Source of the DNA: Elusimicrobiota bacterium
GTDB lineage: Bacteria > Elusimicrobiota > Elusimicrobia > UBA1565 > UBA9628
Direction of reading: 5' to 3'
DNA: 36,019 nucleotides
Assembly (NCBI GenBank): GCA_016212825.1
Contig: JACRDS010000007.1
Span: forward strand, 1-36,019
A program made the translations under genes and the position numbers. Numbering within the stretch: position 1 is the first letter of the stretch; each line of letters starts with the position of its first letter. The notes below the pieces were generated by a model that saw only the letters and a list, made by a program, of their open reading frames with translations, did not search any database and was not told the origin of the DNA. Of the stretch, positions 5,120-25,776 are shown one piece after another.

Positions 5120-5149
5120 TTGGCAGGGGGGCGTCCAAAGAGCTATCAT
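5120..5149 (+). promoter_or_regulatory. Probable promoter of the Ehr-type operon
   Basis: TTGGCA (5120-5125) and TATCAT (5144-5149) are 18 bases apart, in the divergent space between the GT-C gene and the EIIA-like gene. Initiation near 5156 would give a leader of about 80 bases that contains a nested hairpin. Confidence 0.5.
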
Positions 5150-5234: not shown

Positions 5235-5912
5235 ATGCAGCTAGGGATCAAGGACGCCGCCCGTCTTTTGGACGTTCCGGAGAACACCGTCTATCTCTGG
5301 ATAGAGGAAGGCCGTCTGCCCGCCTACCGGGTCCATTCGCAGTACCGCTTCAACCGCGCCGAGCTCCTGGAATGGGCGACCGCGCAGAGGCTCAAGGTCT
5401 CTCCGGACTTCTACCGCGAGGTCGAGCCCGGCCTGCCCTGCCTCTGGTCCGCCTTGGCGGCCGGGGGCGTGCACCCGCCGCTGGCCGCGGCCGGCAAGGC
5501 CGAGGCCCTCACGGCCGCGGTCGGGCTCATGCGCCTGCCGCCCGAGGTGGACCGCGCTTTCCTGCTGGAGATGTTCCTGGCCCGGGAAGCGCACTCGGGC
5601 AGCGGGGTGGGGGAGGGCATCGCCATGCCCCATGTGCGCAACCCCCTGGTCCTGCCCGTGGAGCGGCCCATGGTCTCGCTGTGCTACCTCGAGCCTCCCG
5701 TGGATTTCGGGGCGCCGGACCGCGTCCCGGTGCGCGTCCTCTTCGCCATCGTGAGCACGGGCATCCGCGGCCACCTGCACCTGCTTTCGCGGCTGGCCGG
5801 CGTCCTGCGCGAGCCCTCCTGCCGGCAGCTGCTGGACCGGCGCGCCGGCGAGGCCGAGTTGGTGGCCGGGTTCCGGCGCGTCGAGGAAGCCTTGACCGGG
5901 ACGGGCGCCTAG
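5235..5912 (+). CDS. HTH (excisionase-type) + PTS EIIA(Ntr/fructose-type) domain regulator
   Basis: A 225-residue two-domain protein. Residues 1-50 are a MerR/excisionase-like DNA-binding domain (GIKDAARLLDVPENTVYLWIEEGRLPAYRV, then QYRFNRAELLEW). Residues 75-220 are a PTS EIIA type 2 domain with the phospho-acceptor motif GEGIAMPHVR (His133), followed by FAIVSTGIRGHLHLLSRLA. No EIIB, EIIC, EI or HPr gene is nearby, so a regulatory rather than transport role is inferred. A GGAGG lies 12 bases before the ATG, a little far. The stop is one base before the hyfB-like ATG, so this is the first gene of the complex operon and probably its regulator or an input sensor of carbon/nitrogen or PEP status. 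Confidence 0.85.
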   Translation: MQLGIKDAARLLDVPENTVYLWIEEGRLPAYRVHSQYRFNRAELLEWATAQRLKVSPDFYREVEPGLPCLWSALAAGGVHPPLAAAGKAEALTAAVGLMRLPPEVDRAFLLEMFLAREAHSGSGVGEGIAMPHVRNPLVLPVERPMVSLCYLEPPVDFGAPDRVPVRVLFAIVSTGIRGHLHLLSRLAGVLREPSCRQLLDRRAGEAELVAGFRRVEEALTGTGA

Positions 5913-5913
5913 C

Positions 5914-7887
5914 ATGGGCGCCTTCCTCCTCAGCATCGGGCTCCTGGCCGCGGGCGGCCTGGGAGCCCTCTTCTTCAGCCGCCGGTCCCGCCTGGCCGGC
6001 CTCTTCGGAGCGGGCGGGGCCCTGCTGGGAGCCGCCGTCGGCTTGGCCGAGGTCCTGCCGGCTCTCCTGGACAGGACGCCGCGGCCCCTGCGCCTGGACT
6101 GGGGGCTGCCGCTGGGTTCCTTCTCCTTGGCCCTAGACCCGCTCTCCGCCTTCTTCGCCGCGCCCATCCTCGGGCTCTGCGCCGCGGCCGCGCTCTACGG
6201 CGTCGAGTACATGGAGGCTCACTCCTCCCGCCGGAGCTTGGGACCCTCCTGGTTCTTCTTCGACCTGCTCATGGCGAGCATGCTGGTGCTGTGCGCGGCG
6301 CGCGACAGCGTGCTCTTCCTCATCGCCTGGGAGCTCATGACCCTCTCCTCTTTCTTCTTGGTGACCTTCGAGGACGAGAAGGAGAGCGTGCGCCGGGCGG
6401 GCTGGACCTACCTCGTGGCCGCGCACCTGGGCACCGCGGGACTGTTCCTGCTCTTCATGCTTCTGAGCCGCCAGGCCGGCTCCACGGACCTCTCCGCGGT
6501 CCCGGCCCTCTCCCCGCTCCACGCCGACGCCGCTTTCCTCCTGGCTTTGGTCGGGTTCGGGACCAAGGCGGGCTTCATGCCCATGCATGTCTGGCTGCCC
6601 GAGGCCCACCCCGCCGCGCCCAGCCATGTCTCCGCGGTCATGTCCGGGGTCATGATCAAGACCGGCATCTACGGCTTGCTGCGCGTCCTGTCTTTGCTGG
6701 GCGCGCCGCCCGCCTGGTGGGGCTGGTGCCTGCTTGCCGTCGGGGCGGTCTCGGGCGTTCTGGGAGTGCTCTTCGCCCTGGCCCAGCACGACCTCAAGCG
6801 CCTGCTGGCCTACCACAGCGTGGAGAACATCGGCATCATCGCTTTGGGCCTGGGCGTGGGCCTGCTGGGGCGCGCGCACGGCATGCCTCTGGTGTCCGTG
6901 CTCGGCTTCGCCGGGGCCTTGCTGCACGTGCTCAACCACGTGCTCTTCAAGGGCCTGCTCTTCCTCGGCGCCGGCTCGGTCCTGCACGCGGCGGGCACTC
7001 GGGACATGGAGCATCTGGGCGGGCTGCTCAAGCGCATGCCCTGGACCGGCTCCACCTTCCTGATCGGCTCCGCCGCCATCTGCGGCCTGCCCCCGCTCAA
7101 CGGCTTCGTCAGCGAGTTCCTCATTTATCTGGGCGCCTTCTACGCCGTGGTGGCGGGCGGGGCCGCCTGGGGCGCGGTGGCCATCGGCGCTCTGGCCCTC
7201 ATCGGCGGCCTGGCCTTGGCCTGCTTCACCAAGGCTTTCGGGGTCGTGTTCCTGGGCGAGCCGCGCGGGGAGAAGGCCGCGGCCGCGCATGAGTGCGGCT
7301 GGCCCATGCGCCTGAGCATGGCCGCTTTGGCCGCAGGCTGCGTGCTGGTCGGCCTGTGCGGACCGATGGTCCTGTTCTGGTCGAGCGGGACTTTGCTCCA
7401 GGTCTGCGCCCTGCCTCCCGCAGCCTTCCAGTCTCTGCTTTTTGGAAGCGTCCTGCCGCCTCTGCTGTGGGTCTGCGGCGCCGGCGCGGCCCTGCTGGCC
7501 GCGCTCATCCTGGGCGCTCTGGCGCGCGCCTGGCTGCTGCGCGGCCGGCCGGTCGGCGAGAGCGGCACCTGGGACTGCGGCTACGCCGCGCCCGGCCCGC
7601 GCATGCAGTACACCGCCTCATCCTTCGCGCAGCCCATCACCGGTCTTTTCAGCTTCTTCCTGCGCCCGCGCGAGCGCGCTTCCGGACCCGAAGGGTATTT
7701 CCCGGCCTCGGCTTCCTACGCGACCGAGACCCCGGACCTTTTCCGCGAGCGCCTCTACGAGCCTGTGTTCTCCGGGGTCCTGCGCCTGGCCTGGCGCCTG
7801 CGCTGGCTCCAGCACGGCCGCATCCAGCTCTATGTCCTTTATATAGCCCTGACCTTGCTGGTTCTCCTGCTCTGGAGGCTCGGATGA
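5914..7887 (+). CDS. hyfB: HyfB-like antiporter-type membrane subunit of Ehr-type complex
   Basis: 657 residues, close to HyfB/HycC length, with about 14-16 membrane helices. It belongs to the NuoL/M/N-Mrp proton-translocating family. Key charged residues are present: Glu140 in LIAWELMTL, Lys218 in GFGTKAGFMPMHVWLPEAHP, Lys249 in VMIKTGIYGLLR, and HDLKRLLAYHSVENIG. The C-terminus has the HyfB hallmark WDCGY...MQYTASSFAQPI. It would form part of the ion-pumping membrane arm. The gene starts one base after the regulator's stop and ends with ATGA overlapping the next gene. The alternative label, a NuoL of complex I, is unlikely because the following genes are HyfC/HyfE types. Confidence 0.92.
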   Translation: MGAFLLSIGLLAAGGLGALFFSRRSRLAGLFGAGGALLGAAVGLAEVLPALLDRTPRPLRLDWGLPLGSFSLALDPLSAFFAAPILGLCAAAALYGVEYMEAHSSRRSLGPSWFFFDLLMASMLVLCAARDSVLFLIAWELMTLSSFFLVTFEDEKESVRRAGWTYLVAAHLGTAGLFLLFMLLSRQAGSTDLSAVPALSPLHADAAFLLALVGFGTKAGFMPMHVWLPEAHPAAPSHVSAVMSGVMIKTGIYGLLRVLSLLGAPPAWWGWCLLAVGAVSGVLGVLFALAQHDLKRLLAYHSVENIGIIALGLGVGLLGRAHGMPLVSVLGFAGALLHVLNHVLFKGLLFLGAGSVLHAAGTRDMEHLGGLLKRMPWTGSTFLIGSAAICGLPPLNGFVSEFLIYLGAFYAVVAGGAAWGAVAIGALALIGGLALACFTKAFGVVFLGEPRGEKAAAAHECGWPMRLSMAALAAGCVLVGLCGPMVLFWSSGTLLQVCALPPAAFQSLLFGSVLPPLLWVCGAGAALLAALILGALARAWLLRGRPVGESGTWDCGYAAPGPRMQYTASSFAQPITGLFSFFLRPRERASGPEGYFPASASYATETPDLFRERLYEPVFSGVLRLAWRLRWLQHGRIQLYVLYIALTLLVLLLWRLG

Positions 7888-8801
7888 GGCCCGAGCTGCT
7901 GCACCTGCCCCTGGCTTTGTTCTGCGCGCCCCTGCTGCCCGGCATCATCAACCGGGTCAAGGCCTTCTTCGCGGGCCGTTGCGGGCCCAGCGTGTTCCAG
8001 CCCTATCGGGACCTGCTCAAGCTCCTGCGCAAGGGCGCCGTGTTCAGCCGCACCGCGACCTGGGTGTTCCGCGCCGGTCCCCTGGCGTCGCTGGTCTGCG
8101 CCGCCGCGGCGCTCGCCCTCCTGCCCCTGGGCGGTCTGCCCGCGCTGGTCTGCTTCCCCGGGGACATCGTGCTCTTCGCCTACGTCCTGGCCCTGGGCCG
8201 CTTCTGCACCGTGGCCGCGGCCCTGGACACGGGCTCGGCCTTCGAGGGCATGGGCGCCAGCCGCGAGGTCTGGTTCGCGGCTTTGGCCGAGCCAGCCTTG
8301 CTGCTGGGCCTGGCCGCCATGGCCCGGCAGGGCGGGGAGCTCTCCCTGACCGGGCTTTACGGCTCCTTGGAGCCGGCCGTGCTCCTGGCGCCGGGCGGGC
8401 CCGCGCTGCTGCTGGTGGCCGCCGCCTTGCTCATCATCACCCTGGCGGAGAACTCGCGCATCCCCTTCGACGACCCCGACACCCACCTCGAGCTCACCAT
8501 GATCCACGAGGTCATGGTCCTGGACCACAGCGGGCCGGACTTCGGGCTCATCCAGTACGCCGCCGCCCTGAGACTGTGGCTGCTGGGCGCCCTGGCCGCC
8601 GGGCTGCTGCTGCCTGTGCGCACGGGGCGGCCCTGGCTCGACCTGACCGCGGGGCTCTGCGGCCTGTGCGCGGTGGCCCTGTTCACGGGCGTGGTGGAAT
8701 CCGTGATGGCGCGCCTGCGCCTGACCCGGGTCTCCCAGCTGCTGGCCGCGGCCGCGGCCTTCTCGGTGCTGGCCCTCATGCTGGTGCGGGGGGCGCCATG
8801 A
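7884..8801 (+). CDS. hyfC: HyfC/HycD-like (NuoH-family) membrane subunit
   Basis: A 305-residue protein with about eight membrane helices, homologous to NuoH and HycD/HyfC, which anchors the soluble arm to the membrane arm. The diagnostic loop ENSRIPFDDPDTHLELTMIH continues as EVMVLDHSGPD, near-canonical for this family. The N-terminal RVKAFFAGRCGPSVFQPYRDLLKLLRKGAV matches the conserved cytoplasmic loop of HycD-type subunits (GRxGPxxxQPYxDLxKLL). The start codon overlaps the previous stop (ATGA) and the stop overlaps the next start (ATGA), which indicates tight translational coupling. Confidence 0.93.
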   Translation: MRPELLHLPLALFCAPLLPGIINRVKAFFAGRCGPSVFQPYRDLLKLLRKGAVFSRTATWVFRAGPLASLVCAAAALALLPLGGLPALVCFPGDIVLFAYVLALGRFCTVAAALDTGSAFEGMGASREVWFAALAEPALLLGLAAMARQGGELSLTGLYGSLEPAVLLAPGGPALLLVAAALLIITLAENSRIPFDDPDTHLELTMIHEVMVLDHSGPDFGLIQYAAALRLWLLGALAAGLLLPVRTGRPWLDLTAGLCGLCAVALFTGVVESVMARLRLTRVSQLLAAAAAFSVLALMLVRGAP

Positions 8802-9445
8802 GCTTCTGGCTGGAGTCGCTCATCATCCTCGTGGTGCTCTGCAACCTGCGCGTGCTGGGATCGAGCCGCCTGACCGCCTGCATCCAGACCGTGGCCCTGC
8901 AGGGCGCTCTGCTGGGCCTGCTGCCCGTGCTGGCCCACCTCGACGCGCTGAGCGCCCGCCTGCTCCTGCAGGCCGCCGCGAGCACGGTCCTCAAGGCCGC
9001 GGTCTTCCCCTGGCTCCTCAACCGCGCCCTGCGCCAGGCCGGCCTGCAGAGGGAGGTGGAGCCTTTCGTGGGCTTCACCGCCTCCTTGGCGGCCGGCGTG
9101 CTCTTCCTGGGCGCCGCCCTTTGGCTGGCGGCGCGCCTTCCGCATGCCGGCCCCGAGGCTCTGAGCCGGCTGGTGCCCACGGCCCTGTTCACCATATTCG
9201 TGGGGCTCTTCGTCATCGTGAGCCGGCGCCAGGCCGTGACCCAGGTCCTGGGCTACCTGGTCTTCGAGAACGGCATCTACGCCTTCGGCATGGCCTTCGC
9301 CGAGAAGCAGCCGCTCCTGGTGGAGCTGGGCATCCTGCTCGACGTGTTCATGGGCGTCTTCGTCATGGGCATCACCTTGTTCCACATCCACCGGGAGTTC
9401 GACCACCTCGACACGGACCGGCTCACGGCCCTGAGGGACTCATGA
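8798..9445 (+). CDS. hyfE: HyfE-like membrane subunit (NuoK-like)
   Basis: 215 residues with about six or seven membrane helices, matching hydrogenase-4 component E in length and character; its C-terminal half is related to NuoK. Recognisable pieces are ASTVLKAAVFPWLLNRAL, IVSRRQAVTQVLGYLVFENGI and ELGILLDVFMGVFVMGI, with the conserved Glu in the FENG and ELGILLD segments. It is predicted to lie in the membrane arm between the HyfC-like and antiporter-like subunits. It starts by ATGA overlap with hyfC-like. After its stop the operon is interrupted by an 84-base gap containing a palindromic element, the only sizeable gap in this gene set. Confidence 0.9.
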   Translation: MSFWLESLIILVVLCNLRVLGSSRLTACIQTVALQGALLGLLPVLAHLDALSARLLLQAAASTVLKAAVFPWLLNRALRQAGLQREVEPFVGFTASLAAGVLFLGAALWLAARLPHAGPEALSRLVPTALFTIFVGLFVIVSRRQAVTQVLGYLVFENGIYAFGMAFAEKQPLLVELGILLDVFMGVFVMGITLFHIHREFDHLDTDRLTALRDS

Positions 9446-9456
9446 CCTGCAATATG

Positions 9457-9519
9457 GGGACACCTTACTTAATTCAAGGCGTCTGCTGCAGATTGGTGGG
9501 GAATTAAGTAAGGTGTCCC
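9457..9519. repeat. 63-bp palindromic REP/MITE-like element, copy A
   Basis: Two perfectly complementary 19-base arms (9457-9475 and 9501-9519) with outer end GGGACACC and inner end TTAATTC enclose a 25-base spacer. It lies between hyfE-like and hyfF-like genes. The arms match the second element at 16351-16413 over GGGACACnnTACTTAATTC, i.e. 17 of 19 positions. There is no poly-U run on either strand. The related copies suggest a dispersed element, such as those mobilised by Y1/RAYT transposases, rather than a chance hairpin. Confidence 0.8.
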
Positions 9520-9529
9520 GGAATAACTC

Positions 9530-10999
9530 ATGATCTGGACTCTGCTGGGCGTCCCTCTTGCCTCGGCCGCGGCCGCGTTCGCCATCCGGGCGGACGGGCC
9601 GCGCCGGGGACTCCTGCTGGCCGCGGCCCTGACGCACGCGGCCTTGACCGCGGCCTGCTGGACGATCCAGCCGGCCCCGGTCTTCGGCGGCTATCTGGCG
9701 CTCGACGCTGCCGGGCGGCTCTTCCTGAGCCTTCTGAGCGCGTTGTTTTTGGCCGCATCCTTCTATGGGGCGGGCTACCTGCGGGCCGCGGGCCGCACCA
9801 AGGAGGAGGAGGACGCGGCGGGCTTCCTCTTCGCCAACGCGCCGGAGGCCGTGTTCACGGGCTGCCTGCTGTGCTTTCTGGGCACCATGTCTTTGGCCGT
9901 GCTGAGCCAGCACTTCGGCCTGCTCTGGGTGGGCATCGAGGCCACCACCTTGTGCAGCGCGCCGCTCATCCACTTCCACCGGCAGCGCCGCTCGCTGGAG
10001 GCGACCTGGAAGTATCTGCTGGTCTGCTCCGTGGGCATCGCCCTGGCTTTGCTGGGCAACTTCTTCCTGGCCGTGGCCGCGCGCCAGCACCACGACCTCC
10101 TCATGACCGTTCCGGAGCTGGTCGCGCAGGCGGGCCGGCTCGACAAGCAGTGGCTCAAGGCCGCTTTCCTGCTCTTCCTCGTGGGCTACGGGACGAAGAT
10201 GGGCCTGGCGCCCATGCACACCTGGCTGCCCGACGCGCACAGCGAGGCCCCTTCCGTGGTCTCGGCTTTGCTCTCCGGGGCTCTGCTCAACTGCGCCTTC
10301 CTGGCCCTGCTGCGGGTCAACGCGGTGCTGGCCGCCGCAGGCCTGGCCGACTTCAGCGGGGAGCTGCTCGTGGGCTTCGGCCTGCTCTCCATGGCCGTGG
10401 CCGCGGCGTTCATCATCGGGCAGGGGGATTTCAAGCGCCTGCTGGCCTATTCCAGCGTGGAACACATGGGCATCCTGGCTTTCGGCGCCGGGTTGGGGGC
10501 CGCCGCGCCCGCGGCCCTGCTCCATGCCGTCAACCACTCCTTGACCAAGGGCTTCCTGTTCCTGACCGCGGGCAACCTGCTCGCCGCAAGCCGCACCAAG
10601 TCCGTGGGAGAGATCCGCGGCCTGCTGCGCGCCCTGCCGCGCTCCGGCGCGCTGTGGCTCGTCGGTTTCCTGGCCATAACCGGCTCGCCCCCGTTCGGGA
10701 CCTTCGTCAGCGAGCTCTGGATACTCCAGGGCGCGCTGGCCCGGCACCGGGGCGTCCTGGCCGCCCTCTATCTGGCCTTCCTGGCCGCGGTCTTCGCGGC
10801 CATGGCCTCGGTGGTGCTCAAGATGTCGCAGGGGGAGCCCTCGGATCGGCTCAAGGAGGTGCCGGGCGACGATGCCGACCCCTGGCGGTTCTGGCCGCCC
10901 GCTTTGCTGGCCGCCGCGGTCCTGGTCCTGGGGCTGTGGGTGCCCCCGCCTCTGCTCGACGCGGTGCGCGAAGCCGCCGCGGTCCTGGGGATGCGCTGA
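9530..10999 (+). CDS. hyfF: HyfF-like antiporter-type membrane subunit (NuoN/M family)
   Basis: 489 residues with about 13-14 predicted helices, related to HyfF and NuoN/M proton-pumping subunits. Charged pump residues are visible: Glu137 in LLWVGIEATTLCS, Lys223 in GYGTKMGLAPMHTWLPDAH, and DFKRLLAYSSVEHMGIL. The motif SPPFGTFVSELWILQGAL is also typical. It provides a second ion-translocating module besides the hyfB-like subunit. The ATG follows the palindromic element by 10 bases and has no strong Shine-Dalgarno, so its expression may depend on that element's structure or on readthrough. Its TGA overlaps the next ATG by one base. Confidence 0.92.
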   Translation: MIWTLLGVPLASAAAAFAIRADGPRRGLLLAAALTHAALTAACWTIQPAPVFGGYLALDAAGRLFLSLLSALFLAASFYGAGYLRAAGRTKEEEDAAGFLFANAPEAVFTGCLLCFLGTMSLAVLSQHFGLLWVGIEATTLCSAPLIHFHRQRRSLEATWKYLLVCSVGIALALLGNFFLAVAARQHHDLLMTVPELVAQAGRLDKQWLKAAFLLFLVGYGTKMGLAPMHTWLPDAHSEAPSVVSALLSGALLNCAFLALLRVNAVLAAAGLADFSGELLVGFGLLSMAVAAAFIIGQGDFKRLLAYSSVEHMGILAFGAGLGAAAPAALLHAVNHSLTKGFLFLTAGNLLAASRTKSVGEIRGLLRALPRSGALWLVGFLAITGSPPFGTFVSELWILQGALARHRGVLAALYLAFLAAVFAAMASVVLKMSQGEPSDRLKEVPGDDADPWRFWPPALLAAAVLVLGLWVPPPLLDAVREAAAVLGMR

Positions 11000-12468
11000 T
11001 GGCCGCTGCCCTCGTCTTGCGCAACGGGCAGGCCGCCCCCTTGTCTCGGCTCCCGGTGCTGGGCGCGGAGGAGTTCCGCGGCGCGGTCCTGGAGGCGGTG
11101 GGCGCTGGCGCGCGTTTGAGCGCCTTGTTCGCCCGCCCCAAGGCCGCGGGGCTCCTGGCGGCGCTGGCCGACGACGAGCGGGGGACGGTCTCCTTGCTGG
11201 GCATGGAGCCGGCCGGCTCCTATCCGGCTCTGACCCCGGACTGCCCCCAGGCGCATCTCTTCGAGCGGGAGATCTTCGAGCAGTCCGGCGTGCGTCCTCA
11301 GGGGCATCCCTGGCTCAAGCCGGTGCGCTTCCCTCCGAAGGAAGGGTCGGTCTGCGGGATGATGGACTACTTCCGCGTGGACGGGGAGGAGGTCCACGAG
11401 GTGGCCGTGGGCCCGGTGCATGCGGGGGTCATCGAGCCCGGCCACTTCCGCTTCCAATGCCACGGCGAGAACGTGCGGCATCTTGAGATATCCTTGGGCT
11501 ACCAGCACCGGGGCGCGGAGCGCGCCTTGACGGGCGGGCCGGACCGGCGCACGGTCCATTACATGGAGACTCTGGCCGGAGACAGCACCGTGGGCCACGC
11601 CTGGGCCGGCTGTCAGGCGCTCGAGGCCCTGGGCAAGATGGAGGCCCCTCCTCGCGCCGCGGTGCTGCGCGGGGTGGCGCTCGAGCTCGAGCGCGTCGCC
11701 AACCACATCGGCGACCTGGGCGCCTTGGCCGGGGACGTGGGGTTCCTGCCCACGCAGTCCTATTGCGGGCGCCTGCGCGGCGACGTGCTCAACGCCACGG
11801 CGCTCTTGTGCGGCAACCGCTTCGGCCGCGGCCTGCTGCGGCCCGGCGGGGTGACGCAGGACGCGGACGCGGCCAGGGCCAAGGATCTGCTCGACCGACT
11901 GGAGGACATCGGCCGGGACACGGCCTCGGCCGTGGGCCTGCTCTGGGACTCGCCCTCCGTGACCGGGCGCTTCGAGGAGACGGGGACGGTCTCCTTGGAG
12001 GACTGCCGCCGGCTGGGCCTGGTGGGGGTCGCGGCCCGGGCCTGCGGGCTCAACCGGGACGTGCGCCGCGACCTGCCTTTCGGGGTCTACCGCTACGCCA
12101 TGATCCCGGTCTCCAGCTGGCACGCGGGCGACGTGTTCGGCCGGGCCCAGGTCCGCTGGCTGGAAGTCCAGCGGTCCTTGCAGTTCATTCGTGAGCTCCT
12201 GGAGTCGCTCCCCGGCGGGAGCCTGCGCCGCGAGCCGCCGGGCCTGAGCCCGGAGCATGCGGCGGTCTCCTTGATCGAGGGCTGGCGCGGCGAGATCTGC
12301 CATGTGGCGCTCACCGGAGCCGAGGGACGCTTCTCGGCCTACAAGGTCGCAGACCCCTCTTTCCACAACTGGTTCGGCCTGGCCTTGGCCCTGCGCGGGC
12401 AGCAGATATCGGACTTCCCCTTGTGCAACAAGAGCTTCAACCTATCCTACTGCGGGTTCGACCTGTGA
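10999..12468 (+). CDS. Ehr-type large subunit: HyfG/HycE-like (NuoCD-like) lacking NiFe cysteines
   Basis: 489 residues. Residues 1-135 resemble NuoC/HycE-N (HLFEREIFEQSGVRPQGHPWLKPVR). Residues 136-489 resemble the group 4 [NiFe] large subunit/NuoD (GPVHAGVIEPGHFRF, EISLGYQHRGAERAL). Where hydrogenases have ERxCGxC, this protein has E190-T-L-A193-G-D-S196, continuing TVGHAWAGCQALE. The C-terminal DPCxxC motif is replaced by SDFPLC476-N-K-S479. At least three of four metal ligands are therefore absent, and there is no cleavable C-terminal extension after the motif. This pattern is that of energy-converting-hydrogenase-related (Ehr) complexes, whose substrate is unknown. No hyp maturation genes are in the window. 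A hydrogenase annotation would be wrong. Confidence 0.9.
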   Translation: MAAALVLRNGQAAPLSRLPVLGAEEFRGAVLEAVGAGARLSALFARPKAAGLLAALADDERGTVSLLGMEPAGSYPALTPDCPQAHLFEREIFEQSGVRPQGHPWLKPVRFPPKEGSVCGMMDYFRVDGEEVHEVAVGPVHAGVIEPGHFRFQCHGENVRHLEISLGYQHRGAERALTGGPDRRTVHYMETLAGDSTVGHAWAGCQALEALGKMEAPPRAAVLRGVALELERVANHIGDLGALAGDVGFLPTQSYCGRLRGDVLNATALLCGNRFGRGLLRPGGVTQDADAARAKDLLDRLEDIGRDTASAVGLLWDSPSVTGRFEETGTVSLEDCRRLGLVGVAARACGLNRDVRRDLPFGVYRYAMIPVSSWHAGDVFGRAQVRWLEVQRSLQFIRELLESLPGGSLRREPPGLSPEHAAVSLIEGWRGEICHVALTGAEGRFSAYKVADPSFHNWFGLALALRGQQISDFPLCNKSFNLSYCGFDL

Positions 12469-12472
12469 GGCC

Positions 12473-13219
12473 ATGCTGAAAGTCCTCTGGACGCGGCTCA
12501 AGCAAGGACACCGGACCATGGGATATCCGGATGGCCCGGCGCCGGAGCTTCCGGCCCGGTTCCTGGGCCGCCCCCGGTTCGACCCTTCCCGCTGCAAACC
12601 GGACTGCGCCGGCTGCGCCGGCGTCTGTCCGACCGGGGCGCTGGGCGGCGGCAAGCTCGACCTGGGCCGCTGCCTCTTCTGCGGCGCCTGCGCCGCGGCC
12701 TGTCCCGAAAAAGCAATGGAGTTCACGCAGGAGCATCAGATGGCTGTGCGGGTTCGGGAGCATCTGGAACTGGGCGGCCAGACCTACCGTCTGGCCCATG
12801 CCCTGGAGCAGCGGACCCGGAAGCTTTTCGGCCGCAGCTTGAAGCTCCGGCAGGTCAGCGCGGGCGGCTGCAACGCCTGCGAGGCGGACGTGAACGTGCT
12901 GGGCACCATCGGCTGGGACCTGGGGCGCTTCGGGATCCAGTTCGCGGCCTCGCCCAGGCACGCGGACGGGCTCTTGGTCACGGGTCCGGTCACGGAGAAC
13001 ATGCGCCTGGCCTTGCTCAAGACCTGGGAAGCTGTGCCGGCGCCCAAGCTCGTCATCGCCTCGGGCTCCTGCGCCATCGCGGGCGGGCCCTACCGCGGCC
13101 ATCCCGAGGTCCACGACGGCTGCGGCAAGTTCCTGCCCGTGGACCTCTTCATCCCCGGCTGTCCGCCCCATCCCCTGACCATACTCGACGGGCTGCTGCG
13201 CCTGCTGGGCCGCCTCTAG
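12473..13219 (+). CDS. Fused ferredoxin / NuoB-like small subunit of Ehr-type complex
   Basis: 248 residues combining two subunits that are separate in Hyf/Hyc (HyfH and HyfI). Residues 35-85 are a 2[4Fe-4S] ferredoxin domain. The second motif is canonical (C67LFCGACAAACP). The first is CKPDCAGCAGVCP with three rather than two residues between Cys41 and Cys45. Residues 120-248 are the small-subunit/NuoB domain, keeping the proximal-cluster ligands GGC133NAC136E, GSC200 and PGC230PPHP. The electron path to the large subunit thus looks intact although the NiFe site is gone. The ATG is four bases after the large-subunit stop, and this is the last gene of the operon. Confidence 0.92.
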   Translation: MLKVLWTRLKQGHRTMGYPDGPAPELPARFLGRPRFDPSRCKPDCAGCAGVCPTGALGGGKLDLGRCLFCGACAAACPEKAMEFTQEHQMAVRVREHLELGGQTYRLAHALEQRTRKLFGRSLKLRQVSAGGCNACEADVNVLGTIGWDLGRFGIQFAASPRHADGLLVTGPVTENMRLALLKTWEAVPAPKLVIASGSCAIAGGPYRGHPEVHDGCGKFLPVDLFIPGCPPHPLTILDGLLRLLGRL

Positions 13220-13613: not shown

Positions 13614-16346
13614 ATGAAACGCAGCCTCTCCATCGTCATCGCCGCTTCCATGCTGGTCCTGTCCTGGGGCCCGGCCGCCCCGGTCGCTCTGGCCGCGGCC
13701 GCCGCGGTCCAGGTCAAGGTCCAGGCGCCGACCTCGCCTTTGACCGTCCTGCCGACGATCCACTCCGGGCTGACCTCGCTGAGCGCTCCGGCCCTCGGCG
13801 GCAGCCTCATCTCCCCGGTCCTCTCGTCCCAGCTCCCGGCCGCGCCCAAGCTCGCGCCGGCCGCTCCTCTGGTCGCGGCCCCGGTCGCCGCTCCCGCGGC
13901 GATGCCGGCCGTGATGACCGAGAAGATCACCCAGGACCAGGACGGGTCGCCCACCCCCTTCGCCCTGTCCCTGCAGGCCCTGGCCGCGCCGGCCCCGGGA
14001 TATCAGGACATGGCGGCGGGCGAGACCCGCGGCGCCGCGGACGACGACTTCCAGCAGCGCATCGGCCGGTCCGGCGAGGTGGAGCTGCTGGTCTCCGCCC
14101 CCGAAGGCTCGGGCAAGGTCATGACCGAGGACGTCTACCCGCTCGGGCTCTCCCAGCCGGGTCTCAGCGTCAAGGACATCGACTCGGCCATGGGCAAGCA
14201 GCTCAAGAACCTGGGCGTTTCCCCGGACCTTCTCGCCGCCCACGACGCGCGCGCCATCGGCGCGGTCTCCCAGATCAACACCGCGGTGCTGAAGGTCGCG
14301 GCCGGCAGCGCGGACACGCTCAAGGCCGCCCTGGAAGCCCAGGGCCTGCAGGTGCAGTTCGGCCGGGTCTTCCACGTGCCGCAGCCCCAACAGGCCGAGC
14401 CTTCGGCCCGCACCGTGGGCCTCTCCGAGATGGCCAAGATCATCGGCGCGGACAAGCTCCAGTCCGAGCTGCGCAAGGTGCTGGGCGACCCCATCGGGCC
14501 GGGCGGCAAGAAGAAGGGCTCCCTCGTCGCGCGGGCCGCGGCCTTCGCGGGCAAGGCCCTGCGCGCGGCGCTGGGCAAGGCCGTGGAGAACCCGGTCCTG
14601 CCCTGGGCCGTGCTCGACTCCTGGGTCTCGGTGGACCACCCTTTCCTCAAGGGTCATTTCCTCAAGTCCGTGACCAACGACGACGACGGCGAGTCGCACG
14701 GCACGCACACCGCCGGCACCGTGGTGGGCATGGACCGCTGGAACACCCACGGCCGCAACTACAACATCTTCCCCAACGGCTCGGCCTCGGAGAGCGACAT
14801 CCTCTTCAAGCTCAACATGGCCCAGACCGACGGGGCTCTGGGGACCACCAACTCCTGGGGCGACACCTCGGGCGACCCGGAGGGCGCTATCGAGAAGCTC
14901 TTCGTCAAGCAGGCTCAGGCGGGCATGCACCACAGCATCTCCGCGGGCAACTCGGGCAGCCGCAAGAACACCATCGGCGGCCCGGCCATCGCGGTCGCCG
15001 ACGCCGACATGGTGGTCAACGGCAAGGTCGTGGGCCGGGTCAAGCGCATCAAGGCCATCGCGGCCTCGGACGCGGACAAGAAGACGGCTTACTTCTCCTC
15101 CCGCGGCCCGGGCAGCCGGACCACGGCCGGCAACCCGGAGCAGTACAAGGACTACCCGCAGAAGCCCGACGAATCAGCCGTGGGCGTCAACCTCGTGGCC
15201 CCCATACCGAAGGGCTCCAACGTCCCCGAGCTGGGCGGGCCGGGCGGCTCCATGTCCGGGACCTCCATGAGCAACCCGGGCGCCTTCGGAGCCTTCCTGC
15301 TGCTGACCCGCTCCATCCTGGTCCTGCTCAAGGACAAGCTGCCCGTGGTCCCCACCGCGCAGCAGACCCAGTTCGCCATGGACCTGGCCCGCTTCGCCAT
15401 GACCCGGACCGCCGAGAAGGTGGCCGGGCCCGACGAGGTGGGAGACGGCTTCATCAACGTCTGGTCCGCCTTCGAATACGCGGGCAAGCTCCTGCAGGAC
15501 AACGCCCCCGCCAGCCGGCCCGCGCGGGACCTGAGCCTCAAGGAGTTCGGCATCCTCAACGGGCTCGGCGTGGCCGCGTCCTTGGCGGCCGGCATCCTGG
15601 GGCACGCCGTGCTGCTGGGCATCCTGGGCATGTATGTCGCGCCCATCCCGGTGCTCTTCGCCTATGTGGGGATCAAGCGCCTGCTGGGAGACCGGGTGAA
15701 CTGGCCGAGTATCCGCTTCTCCCCGAGCATCTCCTTCGCGGGCAAGCAGTATCCTGCGCGCCGGGCGCCTGCGCCGGCCGGCCGGATGGGCTTCATCTCG
15801 CCTGAGGCGGCCGCGGCTCTGGCGTTGAGCGAGAGGGATTTCGTGACCGCGCTGCGGCTGCTCTCCGGCAAGAATCTCCGCGGCGCCGAGCTGATGGGCC
15901 AGACCGGGCTGAGCTCCGAGGGCCTCCAGGCCGTGCTGCAGCGCCTCGACGACATGGACATGGTCTTCATCAACGGTTCGCTGCGGCCCGGCGAGATCGC
16001 TTTCGCCTACATCGCCATCAAGCCCAGCGCCCAAGGCGCCGCGCTCCTCATCGCCCGCCCCTGGCCCGGCACGGACAGGCTCAGCCGCACGGCCCTCGAC
16101 GCCCTCGGCCTGCTCAAGCAGAGGCTCCGCTTCGGTTATGACCTGATGGCCTCCCTGGGGCTGGACCAGGCCGGGCTCGAGGCGTTCCTCGACGAGCTCC
16201 AGACCGCGGACCTGGTGCGCGTCGTCGGGGAGCCGCGCGGCCCCAACGCGGCGAGCGCCACCGTCTACATCCAGCCCAGCGGCCAGGGCAAGGTCAATGC
16301 CGTGCTGGAGCGCGTGCGCCTGCTCAAGCTCCTGCTGCGGCCCTGA
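13614..16346 (+). CDS. Secreted, membrane-tethered subtilisin-like (S8) serine protease with C-terminal tandem domain
   Basis: 910 residues. A signal peptide (MKRSLSIVIAASMLVLSWGP...VALA) is followed by an Ala/Pro-rich stretch to about residue 100 and a propeptide-like region (130-255) with a repeated V/L-K-V pattern. The catalytic domain shows Asp335 (WAVLDSWV), His362 (ESHGTHTAGTVVG), oxyanion Asn446 (SAGNSG) and Ser551 (GGSMSGTSMSNP), so it should be active. Residues 645-690 form one or two membrane segments. Residues 730-910 contain two similar helical units (ALSERDFVTALRLLSGKNLRG... and SRTALDALGLLKQRLRF...) that resemble winged-helix repeats. Substrate unknown. It is followed five bases later by palindrome copy B, so it is probably monocistronic. 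Confidence 0.88.
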   Translation: MKRSLSIVIAASMLVLSWGPAAPVALAAAAAVQVKVQAPTSPLTVLPTIHSGLTSLSAPALGGSLISPVLSSQLPAAPKLAPAAPLVAAPVAAPAAMPAVMTEKITQDQDGSPTPFALSLQALAAPAPGYQDMAAGETRGAADDDFQQRIGRSGEVELLVSAPEGSGKVMTEDVYPLGLSQPGLSVKDIDSAMGKQLKNLGVSPDLLAAHDARAIGAVSQINTAVLKVAAGSADTLKAALEAQGLQVQFGRVFHVPQPQQAEPSARTVGLSEMAKIIGADKLQSELRKVLGDPIGPGGKKKGSLVARAAAFAGKALRAALGKAVENPVLPWAVLDSWVSVDHPFLKGHFLKSVTNDDDGESHGTHTAGTVVGMDRWNTHGRNYNIFPNGSASESDILFKLNMAQTDGALGTTNSWGDTSGDPEGAIEKLFVKQAQAGMHHSISAGNSGSRKNTIGGPAIAVADADMVVNGKVVGRVKRIKAIAASDADKKTAYFSSRGPGSRTTAGNPEQYKDYPQKPDESAVGVNLVAPIPKGSNVPELGGPGGSMSGTSMSNPGAFGAFLLLTRSILVLLKDKLPVVPTAQQTQFAMDLARFAMTRTAEKVAGPDEVGDGFINVWSAFEYAGKLLQDNAPASRPARDLSLKEFGILNGLGVAASLAAGILGHAVLLGILGMYVAPIPVLFAYVGIKRLLGDRVNWPSIRFSPSISFAGKQYPARRAPAPAGRMGFISPEAAAALALSERDFVTALRLLSGKNLRGAELMGQTGLSSEGLQAVLQRLDDMDMVFINGSLRPGEIAFAYIAIKPSAQGAALLIARPWPGTDRLSRTALDALGLLKQRLRFGYDLMASLGLDQAGLEAFLDELQTADLVRVVGEPRGPNAASATVYIQPSGQGKVNAVLERVRLLKLLLRP

Positions 16347-16350
16347 CGGA

Positions 16351-16413
16351 ATTCAGGGACACAATACTTAATTCGGCGGTCGATCCGCCGGGTTAGGTAT
16401 TGTGTCCCCGAAT
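16351..16413. repeat. 63-bp palindromic REP/MITE-like element, copy B
   Basis: 29-base arms (16351-16379 and 16385-16413) around a 5-base loop are complementary at 25 positions; three of the four differences are G-U compatible on the plus-strand RNA. The core GGGACACAATACTTAATTC matches copy A at 17 of 19 bases, and total length is the same 63 bp. It begins five bases after the protease stop, and its right arm runs into the namZ promoter. Confidence 0.8.
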
Positions 16414-16416
16414 TTG

Positions 16417-16422
16417 TATCAT
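16417..16422 (+). promoter_or_regulatory. -10 element of namZ
   Basis: TATCAT within TTTGTATCATCCCGG. The predicted start point falls at or next to the ATG at 16429, so the transcript is probably leaderless. The -35 region would lie inside the right arm of palindrome copy B. Confidence 0.5.
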
Positions 16423-16428
16423 CCCGGC

Positions 16429-17676
16429 ATGCCCGCCGCTCGTCGGCTTCTTCCCGTCCTGCTCATCCTCCTCGCCGGCTGCATGGAGCCGCCGCAGCGG
16501 CCCGTCAAGGCTCCGCCCGGCAAGGTGCTCACGGGCATCGACGTGCTCGAGGCCAACGGCTTCCAGGAACTGCAGGGCCGCCGCATCGGGCTCATCACCA
16601 ACCACACGGGCCTGGATTCCCAGGGGCGGTCCACGGCCGAGGTCCTGGCCGGCGCGCCAGGGGTGGACCTGGCGGCGATCTTCTCCCCGGAACACGGATT
16701 CCAAGGCAAGATCGAGGAAGGGGGGGTGAGTTCCACCACCGTCAAGCTCGCCGGCCGCGACATCCCGGTCTACAGCCTCTACTCCGGGACCATGGGGGGG
16801 ATGCGGCCCCAACCCGCCCAACTGCAGGGGCTCGACGCCCTGGTCTTCGACATCCAGGACGTCGGCGCGCGCTTCTACACCTACCTCGCGACCATGGGCA
16901 TGGCCATGGAGGAGGCGGCCAGGGCGCGCATCGCCTTCATCGTCCTCGACCGGCCCAATCCCATCAACGGCCTGACCGTGGAGGGACCGCTCCTGACGGA
17001 CCCGGAGCTCCCCACGCTCTCGCCGACATCCTATTTCCCGGTCACGGTGCGCCACGGCCTGACCGCGGGCGAGATGGCGCGGCTGCACAATCAGAAGGCG
17101 CGCGTGGCCCACCTGCGCGTGGTGCGCATGGTGAACTGGAAGCGCGGCATGTGGTACGATCAGACCGGCCTGCCCTGGACCGCGCCCTCGCCCAACATGC
17201 CCGACCTGACGGCTGCCGCCCTGTATCCGGGCCTGGGACTCTTCGAGGCCGGCAACCTCTCGGTGGGCCGCGGCACGCCGCATCCCTTCGGCTGGGTGGG
17301 CGCGCCCTGGCTCGATCCCAAGAAGGTCCTGGGCAAGCTCAACGAGTCGCTCCTCGACGGCGTGGCCTTCTCGGCCCAGGACTACACCCCGACCAAGTCG
17401 GTCTACGCCCAGGAGCCCTGCGCAGGCATCCTCATCACGGTCACGGACCGCGAGGTCATGCGCCCGCTCGACGTGTTCCGCGCCCTCGACCAGGCCCTCT
17501 ACGAGGTCCACCGCGCCGACTACCAGTGGCGCTGGGAGGAGGTCCGCAAGATGACGGGCTCGCGCGAGTTCCAGAACATCTGGGAGCGCGACCATGACCG
17601 CATCAAGATCATGGCCCTGTTCAACTGGGGCGCGGAGAAGTTCGAGAAGTCGCGCCGGGACTGCCTGCTCTATTGA
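16429..17676 (+). CDS. namZ: NamZ-like exo-beta-N-acetylmuramidase lipoprotein (DUF1343)
   Basis: 415 residues. The N-terminus MPAARRLLPVLLILLAGC is a lipoprotein signal with lipobox LAGC (Cys18), so the enzyme is anchored on the periplasmic side or outer membrane. Family motifs are clear: RRIGLITNHTG, FSPEHGFQG, DIQDVGARFYTYLATM, LDRPNPINGLTVEGP, PSPNMP and GRGTPHPFGWVGAPW. DUF1343/NamZ proteins release MurNAc from non-reducing ends of peptidoglycan fragments. Length fits the family. An upstream in-frame ATG exists at 16402, but it lies inside the palindrome and would spoil the signal peptide. A nagZ-like gene and an amidase gene nearby fit a muropeptide-degrading set. Confidence 0.92.
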   Translation: MPAARRLLPVLLILLAGCMEPPQRPVKAPPGKVLTGIDVLEANGFQELQGRRIGLITNHTGLDSQGRSTAEVLAGAPGVDLAAIFSPEHGFQGKIEEGGVSSTTVKLAGRDIPVYSLYSGTMGGMRPQPAQLQGLDALVFDIQDVGARFYTYLATMGMAMEEAARARIAFIVLDRPNPINGLTVEGPLLTDPELPTLSPTSYFPVTVRHGLTAGEMARLHNQKARVAHLRVVRMVNWKRGMWYDQTGLPWTAPSPNMPDLTAAALYPGLGLFEAGNLSVGRGTPHPFGWVGAPWLDPKKVLGKLNESLLDGVAFSAQDYTPTKSVYAQEPCAGILITVTDREVMRPLDVFRALDQALYEVHRADYQWRWEEVRKMTGSREFQNIWERDHDRIKIMALFNWGAEKFEKSRRDCLLY

Positions 17677-18317: not shown

Positions 18318-19781
18318 CTACAGGTCCACGGGCATGCGCCCGGTGACCGGGATGGCCCCGACAAGAGCCTTGGCCGCGGCGCGCTGGCAGACCGGGATGT
18401 CCGAGAAGGCGCAGAGCCCCGGCAGGCCGGAGAAGCCCGACAGTGCGAAGGGGCTGCCGAAGGAGACCACGACCGTCTCGCGGAAGCGCCGCGCCAGGTC
18501 CCTGGCCGCGGCCAGCTCCGCGGGTTCCAGCGCGACGCGGCCGCTGTAGGCCCGCGGCCGCAGGAAGAGCCCCAGGACCAGGATCTCGCCCGGCCGCGCC
18601 GGGCCGGAGGCCAGGCGCAGGGACGCGCCCAGGCGCCGCAGCTCGGTCGCGAAAGCCCGGCCGCGCCAGCCCCGGCCTCCGGCCTCCGCGTAGACGAGGC
18701 GCCGGTCCTTGAGCGCGGCGGGCTTGCCGCGCCAGGCCAGGCAGGACTCAGCGAGCCGCTGGGCCAAAGCCGCGTGTCCGGGGCCGCCCAACTCGGGGAG
18801 GAGTCCCCGGTCGGGCAGGGCATCGGCGAACAGGCCGGCCTGGGTCTTGGCCCGCAGCAGGCGCGCCAGGGCCGCGTCCACGAGGGCCTTGACCGCGGGC
18901 CGCGCGGCCTGGGCTCTCAGGCCGGATAGGAGCCTCTCCGGGTCCTTGGGGACCAGGAGCACGTCCGCCCCGGCGCGCAGGGCGCGCCGGGCGGCGGCGG
19001 TCTCATCCCAGCGCTTGGATATGGCATGCATGTCGAGCGCGTCAGTGGCGACCAGCCCGGCGAAGCCCAGCTCGCCGCGCAGCAGGCGGCCGGCCGCGGG
19101 GGAGAGCGAGAAAGGTCCACGGGCCGAGCCTAAAGCCGGGACGGCCAGATGCCCCAGCATGACCGAGTCGGCCTCGCGAACCGAGCGGCGGAAGGGGGAG
19201 AGGTCATTTTCCAGAGCGGCCTTCCCGGCCTTGATGACCGGAAGCTCCAGGTGGGAATCGCGCACGGTGCGGCCGTGCCCGGGGAAATGTTTGAGGCAGC
19301 CGAGCACTCCCTGGCCGCGCAAGCCTGAGAGATAGGCGCGCACCATGCGGGACACCAGGGCCGGATCGGCGCCGAAGGAGCGGACGTTGACGATGGGGTT
19401 GGCCGGCTCCAGCGCGAGGTCCGCCACCGGCGCCAGGACCCAGCGCACGCCCAAAGCCAGGGCCTCGCGGGCCGTGACCTCGGCCTTGAGTCGGGCGAGC
19501 TCGGGCCGGCCGGAGGCTCCGATGCCCATGTTGGTGGGAAGGGCCGTGGCGCCCTGGCAGTGGGAGGCCGCGCCGTCCTCATAGTCCGCGCAGAAGAGGA
19601 GAGGCACTTCGGCCAGCCTCTGCAGCCGCGCGACCAGGCCCGATATCAGCCGGGGGGTCCCTTTGTAGAGGCAGAACCCGCCGACCCCGGCGCGGACCAG
19701 GGCCGCGGCCCGCCCCGGGTCGTCCCGGCCGAACTGGAAGCTCGGGAAGACCAGTTGGCTGGCCTTTTTCCCGTCGGACAT
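18318..19781 (-). CDS. nagZ: NagZ-like GH3 beta-N-acetylhexosaminidase, cytoplasmic
   Basis: 487 residues without a signal peptide. GH3 features are present: FCADYEDG near the N-terminus, the substrate Lys164-His165 in KHFPGHG, the NagZ-specific general acid/base dyad Asp175-Ser-His177 (DSHLEL), and the nucleophile Asp247 in GLVATDALDM. It should remove GlcNAc from GlcNAc-anhMurNAc or GlcNAc-MurNAc muropeptides. It is longer than Gram-negative NagZ (about 340) by a C-terminal GH3 alpha/beta-sandwich-like region of about 150 residues, as in Firmicute and Bacteroidete forms. It converges on the namZ operon. The promoter places the start point on the ATG, implying a leaderless transcript. Confidence 0.9.
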   Translation of the reverse strand: MSDGKKASQLVFPSFQFGRDDPGRAAALVRAGVGGFCLYKGTPRLISGLVARLQRLAEVPLLFCADYEDGAASHCQGATALPTNMGIGASGRPELARLKAEVTAREALALGVRWVLAPVADLALEPANPIVNVRSFGADPALVSRMVRAYLSGLRGQGVLGCLKHFPGHGRTVRDSHLELPVIKAGKAALENDLSPFRRSVREADSVMLGHLAVPALGSARGPFSLSPAAGRLLRGELGFAGLVATDALDMHAISKRWDETAAARRALRAGADVLLVPKDPERLLSGLRAQAARPAVKALVDAALARLLRAKTQAGLFADALPDRGLLPELGGPGHAALAQRLAESCLAWRGKPAALKDRRLVYAEAGGRGWRGRAFATELRRLGASLRLASGPARPGEILVLGLFLRPRAYSGRVALEPAELAAARDLARRFRETVVVSFGSPFALSGFSGLPGLCAFSDIPVCQRAAAKALVGAIPVTGRMPVDL

Positions 19782-19787
19782 GGGGGG

Positions 19788-19816
19788 ATTATGCCTTATG
19801 ACCTGGGGATTTGCAA
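19788..19816 (-). promoter_or_regulatory. nagZ promoter
   Basis: Minus-strand TTGCAA (19816-19811), 17 bases, CATAAT (19793-19788). Initiation would fall at about 19781, the first base of the ATG. The region overlaps the divergent promoter of the 19851 gene. Confidence 0.6.
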
Positions 19817-19822
19817 TATTTG

Positions 19823-19828
19823 TATAAT
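19823..19828 (+). promoter_or_regulatory. Consensus -10 of the 19851 gene
   Basis: A perfect TATAAT in TTTGTATAATCCCGC. The surrounding 17 bases closely match the namZ promoter (TTTGTATCATCCCGG). The predicted leader is about 16 bases. Confidence 0.6.
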
Positions 19829-19850
19829 CCCGCGATTGTACACTGGAACC

Positions 19851-25290: not shown

Positions 25291-25298
25291 GTTCTCTC

Positions 25299-25724
25299 CT
25301 ATATCTGCCAGAGCTTGAGACCCAGCTCGGGGATGAGGCGGCGCTCGATGCTGCCTTTGAAGACGCGCAGGCTGATCTCACAGGTCGGCATCACGACGGC
25401 GCGGAAGAGGTGGCCGCCGCGCACGCTCATGTCCCTGAGGCTCAGGGCCGCGTGGGCGTGGACGAGGACGGAGCCGTCATCGACGCGCGCGACGTTGCCG
25501 GTGAGGGAGACGATCTCGATGGCTCCGGAGAGGGTCTCCTTGTGGTATTCTTTGGTGACGGGGTCGAAGTGCCCGATCTCGGCCTCGCTGACCGCGCCGA
25601 TGCCGGTGAAGACGCCGGCGCCGACCTTGAGCTCAGTGAGGGCGGCCGTGAACCCGGCGATGAGCTCCTCCCCGGGCAGACCCTTGAAGACCCAGTAGCC
25701 GTCTCCCATGCCGCGATGCTTCAT
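25299..25724 (-). CDS. PPC/DUF296-domain protein, 141 aa
   Basis: A single PPC (DUF296) domain, as in stand-alone bacterial proteins and plant AT-hook proteins. Pattern: YWVFKGLPGEELIAGFTAAL, GAGVFTGIGAVSEAEIGHFD, EIVSLTGNVAR, then VLVHAHAALSLRDMSVRGGHLFRAVVMPTCEI, with the conserved His-x-His and GGH residues that in solved homologues bind a metal. Start ATG 25724 gives the usual length; an internal ATG at 25709 is possible. It is the first gene of the pair with the OPT transporter. A sensing or accessory role for the transporter is inferred from this linkage only. Confidence 0.85.
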   Translation of the reverse strand: MKHRGMGDGYWVFKGLPGEELIAGFTAALTELKVGAGVFTGIGAVSEAEIGHFDPVTKEYHKETLSGAIEIVSLTGNVARVDDGSVLVHAHAALSLRDMSVRGGHLFRAVVMPTCEISLRVFKGSIERRLIPELGLKLWQI

Positions 25725-25745: not shown

Positions 25746-25774
25746 ATTATGCCAATTTGGTATGGTACAGCCAA
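25746..25774 (-). promoter_or_regulatory. Promoter of the PPC-OPT operon
   Basis: Minus-strand TTGGCT (25774-25769), 17 bases, CATAAT (25751-25746), giving a leader of about 15 bases. It interleaves with the divergent TATGGT (25761-25766) in front of the plus-strand GT-C gene, so the two promoters would compete for polymerase. Confidence 0.55.
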
Positions 25775-25776
25775 CA

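Follow-up and report, generated by a model that had tools for sequence, protein, structure and literature searches.

The ehr operon and its large subunit

We consider the operon on the + strand at positions 5235 to 13219 of a 36,019-nucleotide stretch of DNA (the window: contig JACRDS010000007.1 of assembly GCA_016212825.1) from an Elusimicrobiota bacterium whose genome, 3.56 Mb in 186 contigs, is 85.7% complete. The operon encodes an energy-converting-hydrogenase-related (Ehr) complex whose large subunit, EhrL, has lost the ligands of the [NiFe] site. A first-pass annotation of the window had read here HyfB-, HyfC-, HyfE- and HyfF-like membrane subunits, a HyfG-like large subunit and a ferredoxin/NuoB fusion, all in one tightly packed operon. 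These genes and their order are confirmed by Pfam and NCBIfam (Table 1), and the packing is as described at most junctions, since the ehr genes overlap or are only a few bases apart; the sole exception is the spacer between ehrE and ehrF, 84 bp that hold a repeated palindrome. The first of the seven genes, which codes for a protein with a helix-turn-helix (HTH) and an EIIA domain, was not among the subunits named at that stage. Promoter-like sites between 4900 and 13700 number two, one per strand, against a mean of 0.2 in shuffled sequence.

Table 1. Features of the ehr operon (window coordinates).
Feature	Position	Strand	Basis
Candidate sigma-70-like promoter TTGGCA-18-TATCAT, 5' of the first gene	5120..5149	+	consensus match only
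HTH-EIIA gene, HTH_17 + PTS_EIIA_2 fusion, first gene	5235..5912	+	Pfam, NCBIfam
ehrB, HyfB-like antiporter subunit	5914..7887	+	domain matches, conserved charges
ehrC, HyfC/HycD/NuoH-like membrane anchor	7884..8801	+	domain matches, conserved acidic residues
ehrE, HyfE-like with NuoK-like part	8798..9445	+	Pfam Oxidored_q2, 25.9 against a cut-off of 26.1 bits
Palindrome (REP/RAYT-like) between ehrE and ehrF	9457..9519	.	genome repeat
ehrF, HyfF-like antiporter subunit	9530..10999	+	domain matches, conserved charges
ehrL, fused NuoC/NuoD-HycE-like large subunit, 489 aa, without [NiFe] ligands	10999..12468	+	
L1-equivalent site E190-T-L-A-G-D-S196	11566..11586	+	alignment with HycE
C476-N-K-S479, aligned with HycE I-I-G-S, not L2	12424..12435	+	MAFFT, hhalign, phmmer
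True L2-equivalent site S483-Y-C-G486	12445..12456	+	MAFFT, hhalign; S483 also phmmer
ehrS, 2[4Fe-4S] HycF-like domain fused to HycG/NuoB-like small subunit	12473..13219	+	

EhrL matches the solved structure of HycE at 2.6e-39 (phmmer against the PDB), so the likeness of the operon is not a matter of chance. To place the ligand positions, we use an alignment of 112 Ehr rows including the window's own (105 of type 1, two of type 2 and five of type 3, these types being working labels of the present analysis and the window complex being of type 1), with E. coli HycE, HyfG and NuoCD and two NuoD-like proteins of the window genome as references. The L1 site was read correctly at the outset: E190-T-L-A193-G-D195-S196 aligns with HycE D238-R-V-C241-G-I-C244. 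The L2 site had been placed at C476-N-K-S479, which proves to be the wrong stretch, as it aligns with residues upstream of the site in HycE. It is S483 and G486, seven residues past CNKS, that align with C531 and C534 of HycE in MAFFT, and a profile-profile comparison with hhalign (48 Ehr rows against HycE/HyfG) gives the same register. The phmmer alignment with PDB chain 7z0s_E runs ungapped through SDFPLCNKSFNLSY / SDAPLIIGSLDPCY and ends at Y484; it therefore shows the correspondence of C531 with S483 only, not that of C534.

The claimed loss of the [NiFe] ligands stands, with all four Ni/Fe ligand positions non-Cys in the window; no other Cys takes up an L1 or L2 ligand column of its EhrL, which thus lacks the two CxxC motifs of a group 4 [NiFe] enzyme. 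Across the family, the column of HycE C241 (A193 in the window) holds Ala in 85, Ser in 14 and Cys in 13 of the 112 rows, and that of C244 (S196) holds Thr in 88, Ser in 18, Ala in three, Asn in two and Val in one, never Cys. S483 is Ser and G486 is Gly in all 111 rows with letters there, and any Ehr row has at most one Cys across the four columns. C485, between the two L2 ligand columns, is Cys in 84 of 111 rows and Ala or Ser in the other 27, while C476 is Cys in 101 of 111. The rows with Cys at 193 have Ala at 485 in 12 of 13 cases and cluster in few clades; a compensating C193/C485 pair, being so confined, is not claimed. EhrL ends where the C-terminal extension of HycE begins, as NuoD does. 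The ligands are likewise lost in type-3 Ehr (L028-L031, L091:17169-19034).

We turn to the rest of the pocket. The passages of PMC9474812 drawn on here place E193 of HycE in the beta1-beta2 loop, R478, D529 and S283 in the canopy, and H284, E437 and R395 in the proton path. E193, R478, H284 and E437 correspond to E146, R430, H236 and E389 of EhrL, each present in 112/112 Ehr rows, and R395 corresponds to R347 (110/112, with Lys in the other two); the canopy S283 is N235 in the window EhrL. Judged from the alignment, the Ehr pocket retains most of the proton machinery of hydrogenases and has mostly lost the canopy Asp. Two residues are invariant in Ehr and differ in the five references: D195, at the x of the former CGxC, and K478, which precedes the L2 site by five residues. 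In soluble hydrogenases, we assume, the D195 position would be that of the hydrophobic gate of the gas tunnel.

A scan of named genomes confirmed at least 572 relatives, the best 80 of which were kept as named loci. Because its peptide patterns cover I145/E146 and D472-S479, the invariance of residues 145-146 and 472-479 in these 80 loci is partly selected; residues 145, 146, 477 and 478 are also invariant in all 31 large subunits found without the patterns.

The first-pass annotation had further suggested that residues around HAWAGCQALE form a substrate site like the quinone site of NuoD, and the alignments do not support this. In an ungapped alignment with 2fug_4 (counted), His38 of Thermus thermophilus Nqo4 falls on I145, beside E146, and Tyr87 falls on G194, and both I145 and G194 are invariant in the 112 Ehr rows. 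E. coli NuoCD and both NuoD-like proteins of the window genome have the His and the Tyr in those columns. The HAWAGCQALE stretch comes after the L1-equivalent site, and its G204 is atypical for a column that is Tyr in 78 and His in 22 of the 112 rows.

Electron entry, membrane subunits and the HTH-EIIA gene

The small subunit EhrS has a proximal cluster motif CxxC...C...C with the spacing of the membrane-bound hydrogenase (MBH), each Cys being present in 91-92 of 94 rows, and from this motif the cluster is predicted to be fully Cys-ligated. The HycF-like domain of EhrS adds eight Cys, each in at least 84 of 91-94 rows. Among solved structures, the small subunit matches MbhJ and HycG best, and complex I less well. 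Among the membrane subunits, E140, K218, K295, H338 and K346 of EhrB are present in all 110-113 rows, E137, K223, K302 and K340 of EhrF in at least 100 of 102, and E128, E136, E189, D196, E203 and E209 of EhrC, in an acidic, NuoH-like loop region, in at least 94 of 96. Ion-pump subunits and a ferredoxin-like electron entry, both named at the first pass, are thus present as sequence features, the former with conserved charged residues. The type-1 operons of L046, L047, L048, L049, L050 and L052 carry a pair of HyfB-like subunits, and so do 17 of the 80 named loci. The pair in L062 may be a single gene that has been broken.

The protein encoded by the first gene has an EIIA_2 domain with a phospho-His, as PtsN/EIIA-Ntr does, but differs from PtsN in its N-terminal HTH_17, in its link with the Ehr operon and in its score (47.2 against the PtsN cut-off of 138.7 bits). 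The phospho-His codon, H133, lies at 5631-5633, and of 57 aligned copies, counting the window's, 54 have His133. Longer stretches were examined for 17 of the 25 genomes with type-1 Ehr; two of these are cut by contig ends, and the gene lies inside the operon in all 15 loci of relatives with visible upstream sequence. Of the 80 named loci, 36 have it in the operon and two divergently (38 of 59 judged), it is absent from 21 with at least 0.9 kb visible, and 21 could not be judged; a profile search finds no copy in the 21 loci scored absent. The gene is divergent in Geobacter argillaceus and also present in Geomonas limicola. It is missing from L094 and L112, the two Elusimicrobia records among the named loci, and hence does not occur throughout the phylum. 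Of ten copies compared with Pfam, most of them divergent, every one matches EIIA_2 (L108 below the cut-off) and nine match HTH_17, the tenth being a 155-aa piece. Enzyme I (EI) of the phosphotransferase system (PTS) is found in 54 of 57 genomes, the window genome included. No EIIA match is found beside the type-3 loci L054, L055 and L057 at the search cut-off.

The palindrome between ehrE and ehrF is repeated in the genome and is not part of the complex: an 18-mer taken from it (one mismatch allowed) occurs at 34 places, against none for the reversed control. The genome has five Y1 transposase matches, one of them between two palindrome copies on contig C136. A same-genus relative, G002, has a related palindrome at the same spot (L039:6569-6633), and in another, G004 (L038), there is no gap between the ehrE and ehrF equivalents.

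Ancestry, spread and genome setting

In a tree of large subunits (43 rows including 34 of the 112 Ehr rows, without MBS and with partial MbhL and Nqo4), of the kind proposed by the first-pass annotation for NuoD, HycE and Ehr, the Ehr rows form a single clade (100/100), HycE/HyfG joins them (98/95) and NuoD is separate (100/100). Ehr is thus sister to HycE/HyfG, apart from NuoD, and with the subunits and the ligand loss this bears out the assignment of the complex to the Ehr type. Type 3 is not one clade (four rows, with L091 apart), and types 1 and 2 are not separated. An AlphaFold model of EhrL built on a 48-row alignment (mean predicted local distance difference test, pLDDT, 89.6) has as its best PDB match HycE of the formate hydrogenlyase (FHL), with a template modelling score of 0.88 by query, and complex I NuoCD chains come next.

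Relatives of the window Ehr are found in Geobacter argillaceus (L095), Geomonas and Geothrix, the last including Geothrix paludis (L113); proteins of Geobacter have reportedly been given the name Ehr. Over 1494 bases, the large-subunit gene of L112 (Elusimicrobia bacterium GWA2_56_46) is 100% identical to one in the genome G210, which belongs to the window genome's class. In L033 and L034/L035, from two genomes, a second, diverged Ehr operon (type 2) stands in tandem with or divergent from the type-1 operon, its large subunit 46-47% identical to type 1.

We surveyed 57 genomes, the window's own and its relatives, calling a type-1 large subunit at more than 500 bits. Type-1 Ehr is present in 25; two of these have type 2 in addition, and four other genomes have type 3. 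HypD is needed to build a [NiFe] site. It is found above the cut-off in 15 of the 57 genomes, eight of them among the 25 with type-1 Ehr and seven among the 32 without (Fisher p 0.55). The 17 type-1 genomes without HypD above the cut-off, 15 of which are at least 90% complete, include G037, which has a short match below it; a nickel dependence of Ehr is rejected on this count. The window genome itself encodes HypD and, apart from EhrL, a PF00374 hydrogenase. As for quinones, MenD is found in none of the 57 genomes, MqnA/MqnD above the cut-off in five (the window genome not among them) and UbiA-family matches above the cut-off in 53, and G036 carries Ehr without a UbiA match. This survey is indecisive, given an incomplete search for ubiquinone pathways and an incomplete window genome. 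Rnf as an alternative to Ehr finds no significant association among the 57 genomes.

Around the 80 named loci, many of which are cut by contig ends, 624 non-core open reading frames within 10 kb on each side were clustered, and no family occurs in more than six loci; there is hence no recurrent neighbour beyond the core and EIIA. A formate dehydrogenase, proposed for Ehr in passages of PMC6349859, does not recur among the clustered frames, the genomes not having been searched for the enzyme itself. Downstream of the operon, the window encodes a 910-aa S8 subtilase-like protein (13614-16346) and a NamZ exo-beta-N-acetylmuramidase (16402-17673). Long open frames at 19560-21914, 23389-25695 and 25762-27924, some of which may not be genes, have no Pfam match at 0.001.

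Ehr complexes are described in the cited passages as group 4-like, without the metal-binding Cys, and of unknown or speculative function (PMC4378227, PMC6349859, PMC7304191, PMC10284858), with Hyf/Nuo-like or antiporter-like membrane subunits (PMC4378227, PMC6349859). The window complex has the same ligand-free, group 4-like large subunit and antiporter-like membrane subunits and is therefore not a new type. These passages do not mention the HTH-EIIA gene that opens the operon here, and a limited literature search found no mention of one beside Ehr. With Hyf and FHL of E. coli, the window operon shares the gene order B-C-E-F-G, the fused NuoC/NuoD-like large subunit and the proton-path residues; it differs in having no counterpart of HyfA or HyfD, in the fusion of the HyfH and HyfI counterparts, and in an EhrL with neither the four [NiFe] Cys nor the C-terminal extension and with Asn for the canopy Asp. 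Complex I (NuoD/NuoB) has the same fold, no [NiFe] ligands, and NuoH-like and antiporter charges, whereas Ehr is a separate clade without the quinone His/Tyr, with a hydrogenase-type cluster motif and with no NADH module in the operon.

A candidate mechanism and its rivals

Combining the residues, conservation, gene order and ancestry, we consider it rather probable that the Ehr complex passes electrons from a ferredoxin-type donor to an acceptor in the emptied [NiFe] pocket, drives ion pumping in this way and is regulated by the EIIA protein. Reduced ferredoxin or a ferredoxin-like donor would feed EhrS at the two [4Fe-4S] clusters of its HycF-like domain, from which electrons would move to the Cys-ligated proximal cluster and end on the acceptor bound in EhrL. 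The pocket has neither metal ligands nor the quinone His/Tyr pair and holds the invariant Asp195 and Lys478, whose roles are conjectural; protons would arrive via the kept hydrogenase residues E146 and H236/E389/R347. Reduction of the acceptor would then power the pumping of H+ or Na+ via EhrC, EhrE and the two antiporter-like subunits, EhrB and EhrF, a step suggested by analogy with complex I and group 4 hydrogenases, and the HTH-EIIA protein would probably tune the operon or the complex to the status of PTS and phosphoenolpyruvate (PEP). The acceptor is probably a small molecule taking two electrons and protons; our single best guess, a tentative one, is a quinone held in a manner other than that of complex I.

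Several observations weigh against this proposal. The canopy Asp of HycE, D529, strictly conserved according to the passages of PMC9474812, corresponds to N481, and the column holds Asn in 103, Asp in five, Ser in two and Gly in one of 111 rows, so that the turnover chemistry may be lost; Asn stands in this column also in one NuoD-like gene of the window genome (L037). The EhrL model has a pLDDT below 50 in the pocket loop 140-146 and at the C-terminus 485-489. RnfC, of a further system that uses ferredoxin, shows no significant link with type-1 Ehr (10 of 25 genomes with it against 8 of 32 without, p 0.26). Two Ehr genomes, G008 and G023, lack EI, and with the EIIA gene lacking in 21 of 59 judged loci this weakens the PTS reading. 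Moreover, the ferredoxin donor, the acceptor, the pumping and the EIIA regulation are all steps that we infer.

One may ask whether EhrL is instead a NuoD-like ferredoxin:quinone oxidoreductase that binds quinone on the classical His/Tyr pair. The shared fold, with complex I NuoCD chains ranking right after HycE in the model search, the two other NuoD-like genes of the genome, which imply a quinone, and the wide occurrence of UbiA-family matches speak for it. The positions of the pair are, however, invariantly Ile and Gly, the proximal cluster has the hydrogenase-type CxxC in place of the tandem CC that the passages of PMC7684303 report for complex I, MenD is missing throughout, MqnA/MqnD are missing from the window genome (as far as its completeness allows), and one genome has Ehr without a UbiA match; we think this reading unlikely. 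A different precedent is MBS of Pyrococcus, a hydrogenase-like complex turned sulfur reductase, which according to the same passages also has a hydrogenase-like large subunit that has lost its [NiFe] ligands and has no His38/Tyr87 pair. By analogy, polysulfide or disulfide would be reduced at the proximal [4Fe-4S] cluster of Ehr. MBS keeps two of the four Cys, and the proximal cluster on which its catalysis depends has just three Cys ligands, in a motif three residues shorter than that of MBH (PMC7684303, in the passages cited), whereas Ehr keeps at most one of the four, and EhrS retains four conserved cluster Cys with MBH spacing. As EhrL also matches the MBS large subunit at 1.3e-12 against 2.6e-39 for HycE, and Ehr groups with HycE/HyfG in a tree that has no MBS rows, we regard an MBS-like reaction as improbable.

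Ehr could still be a hydrogenase, its site completed by other residues or by another metal, and the kept proton path and canopy Arg, the frequent Cys at 476 and 485, and the HypD and separate hydrogenase of the window genome can be cited in favour. Against this, the ligand columns are Ala, Thr, Ser or Gly in most rows, EhrL has no C-terminal extension for a maturation protease, and most Ehr genomes are without HypD, which makes a surviving hydrogenase very unlikely indeed. Finally, the redox arm might be non-catalytic, a sensor or regulator of an Mrp-like antiporter with its activity set by the EIIA protein; the mostly lost canopy Asp and the phospho-His of the EIIA partner would suit such a role. 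An idle arm would not need the 12 cluster Cys, each in at least 84 of 91-94 rows, or the intact proton path, and since these count against it we find it distinctly improbable.

Returning to electron transfer to an acceptor in the emptied pocket, we may also state a bolder and, in our estimate, rather doubtful version, in which type-1 Ehr is a third and independent exit from H2 chemistry next to those of complex I and MBS, with Asp195 and Lys478 forming the site of a polar acceptor and with dedicated EIIA control. If it is true, the hydrogenase proton wire has been kept while the metal and the gas-gate residue were replaced, the polar acceptor is one used by neither complex I nor MBS, and a DNA-binding EIIA protein reads the PTS/PEP state and controls the pump.

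The residue map sorts the features that Ehr has in common with FHL from those common to complex I and MBS, and it supplies candidate residues and a partner gene for testing. With at least 572 relatives in the scan, Ehr is spread over many phyla, and the identity of the acceptor would tell how a common set of bacteria gains its energy and how a single pocket was repeatedly put to new use within the complex I superfamily.

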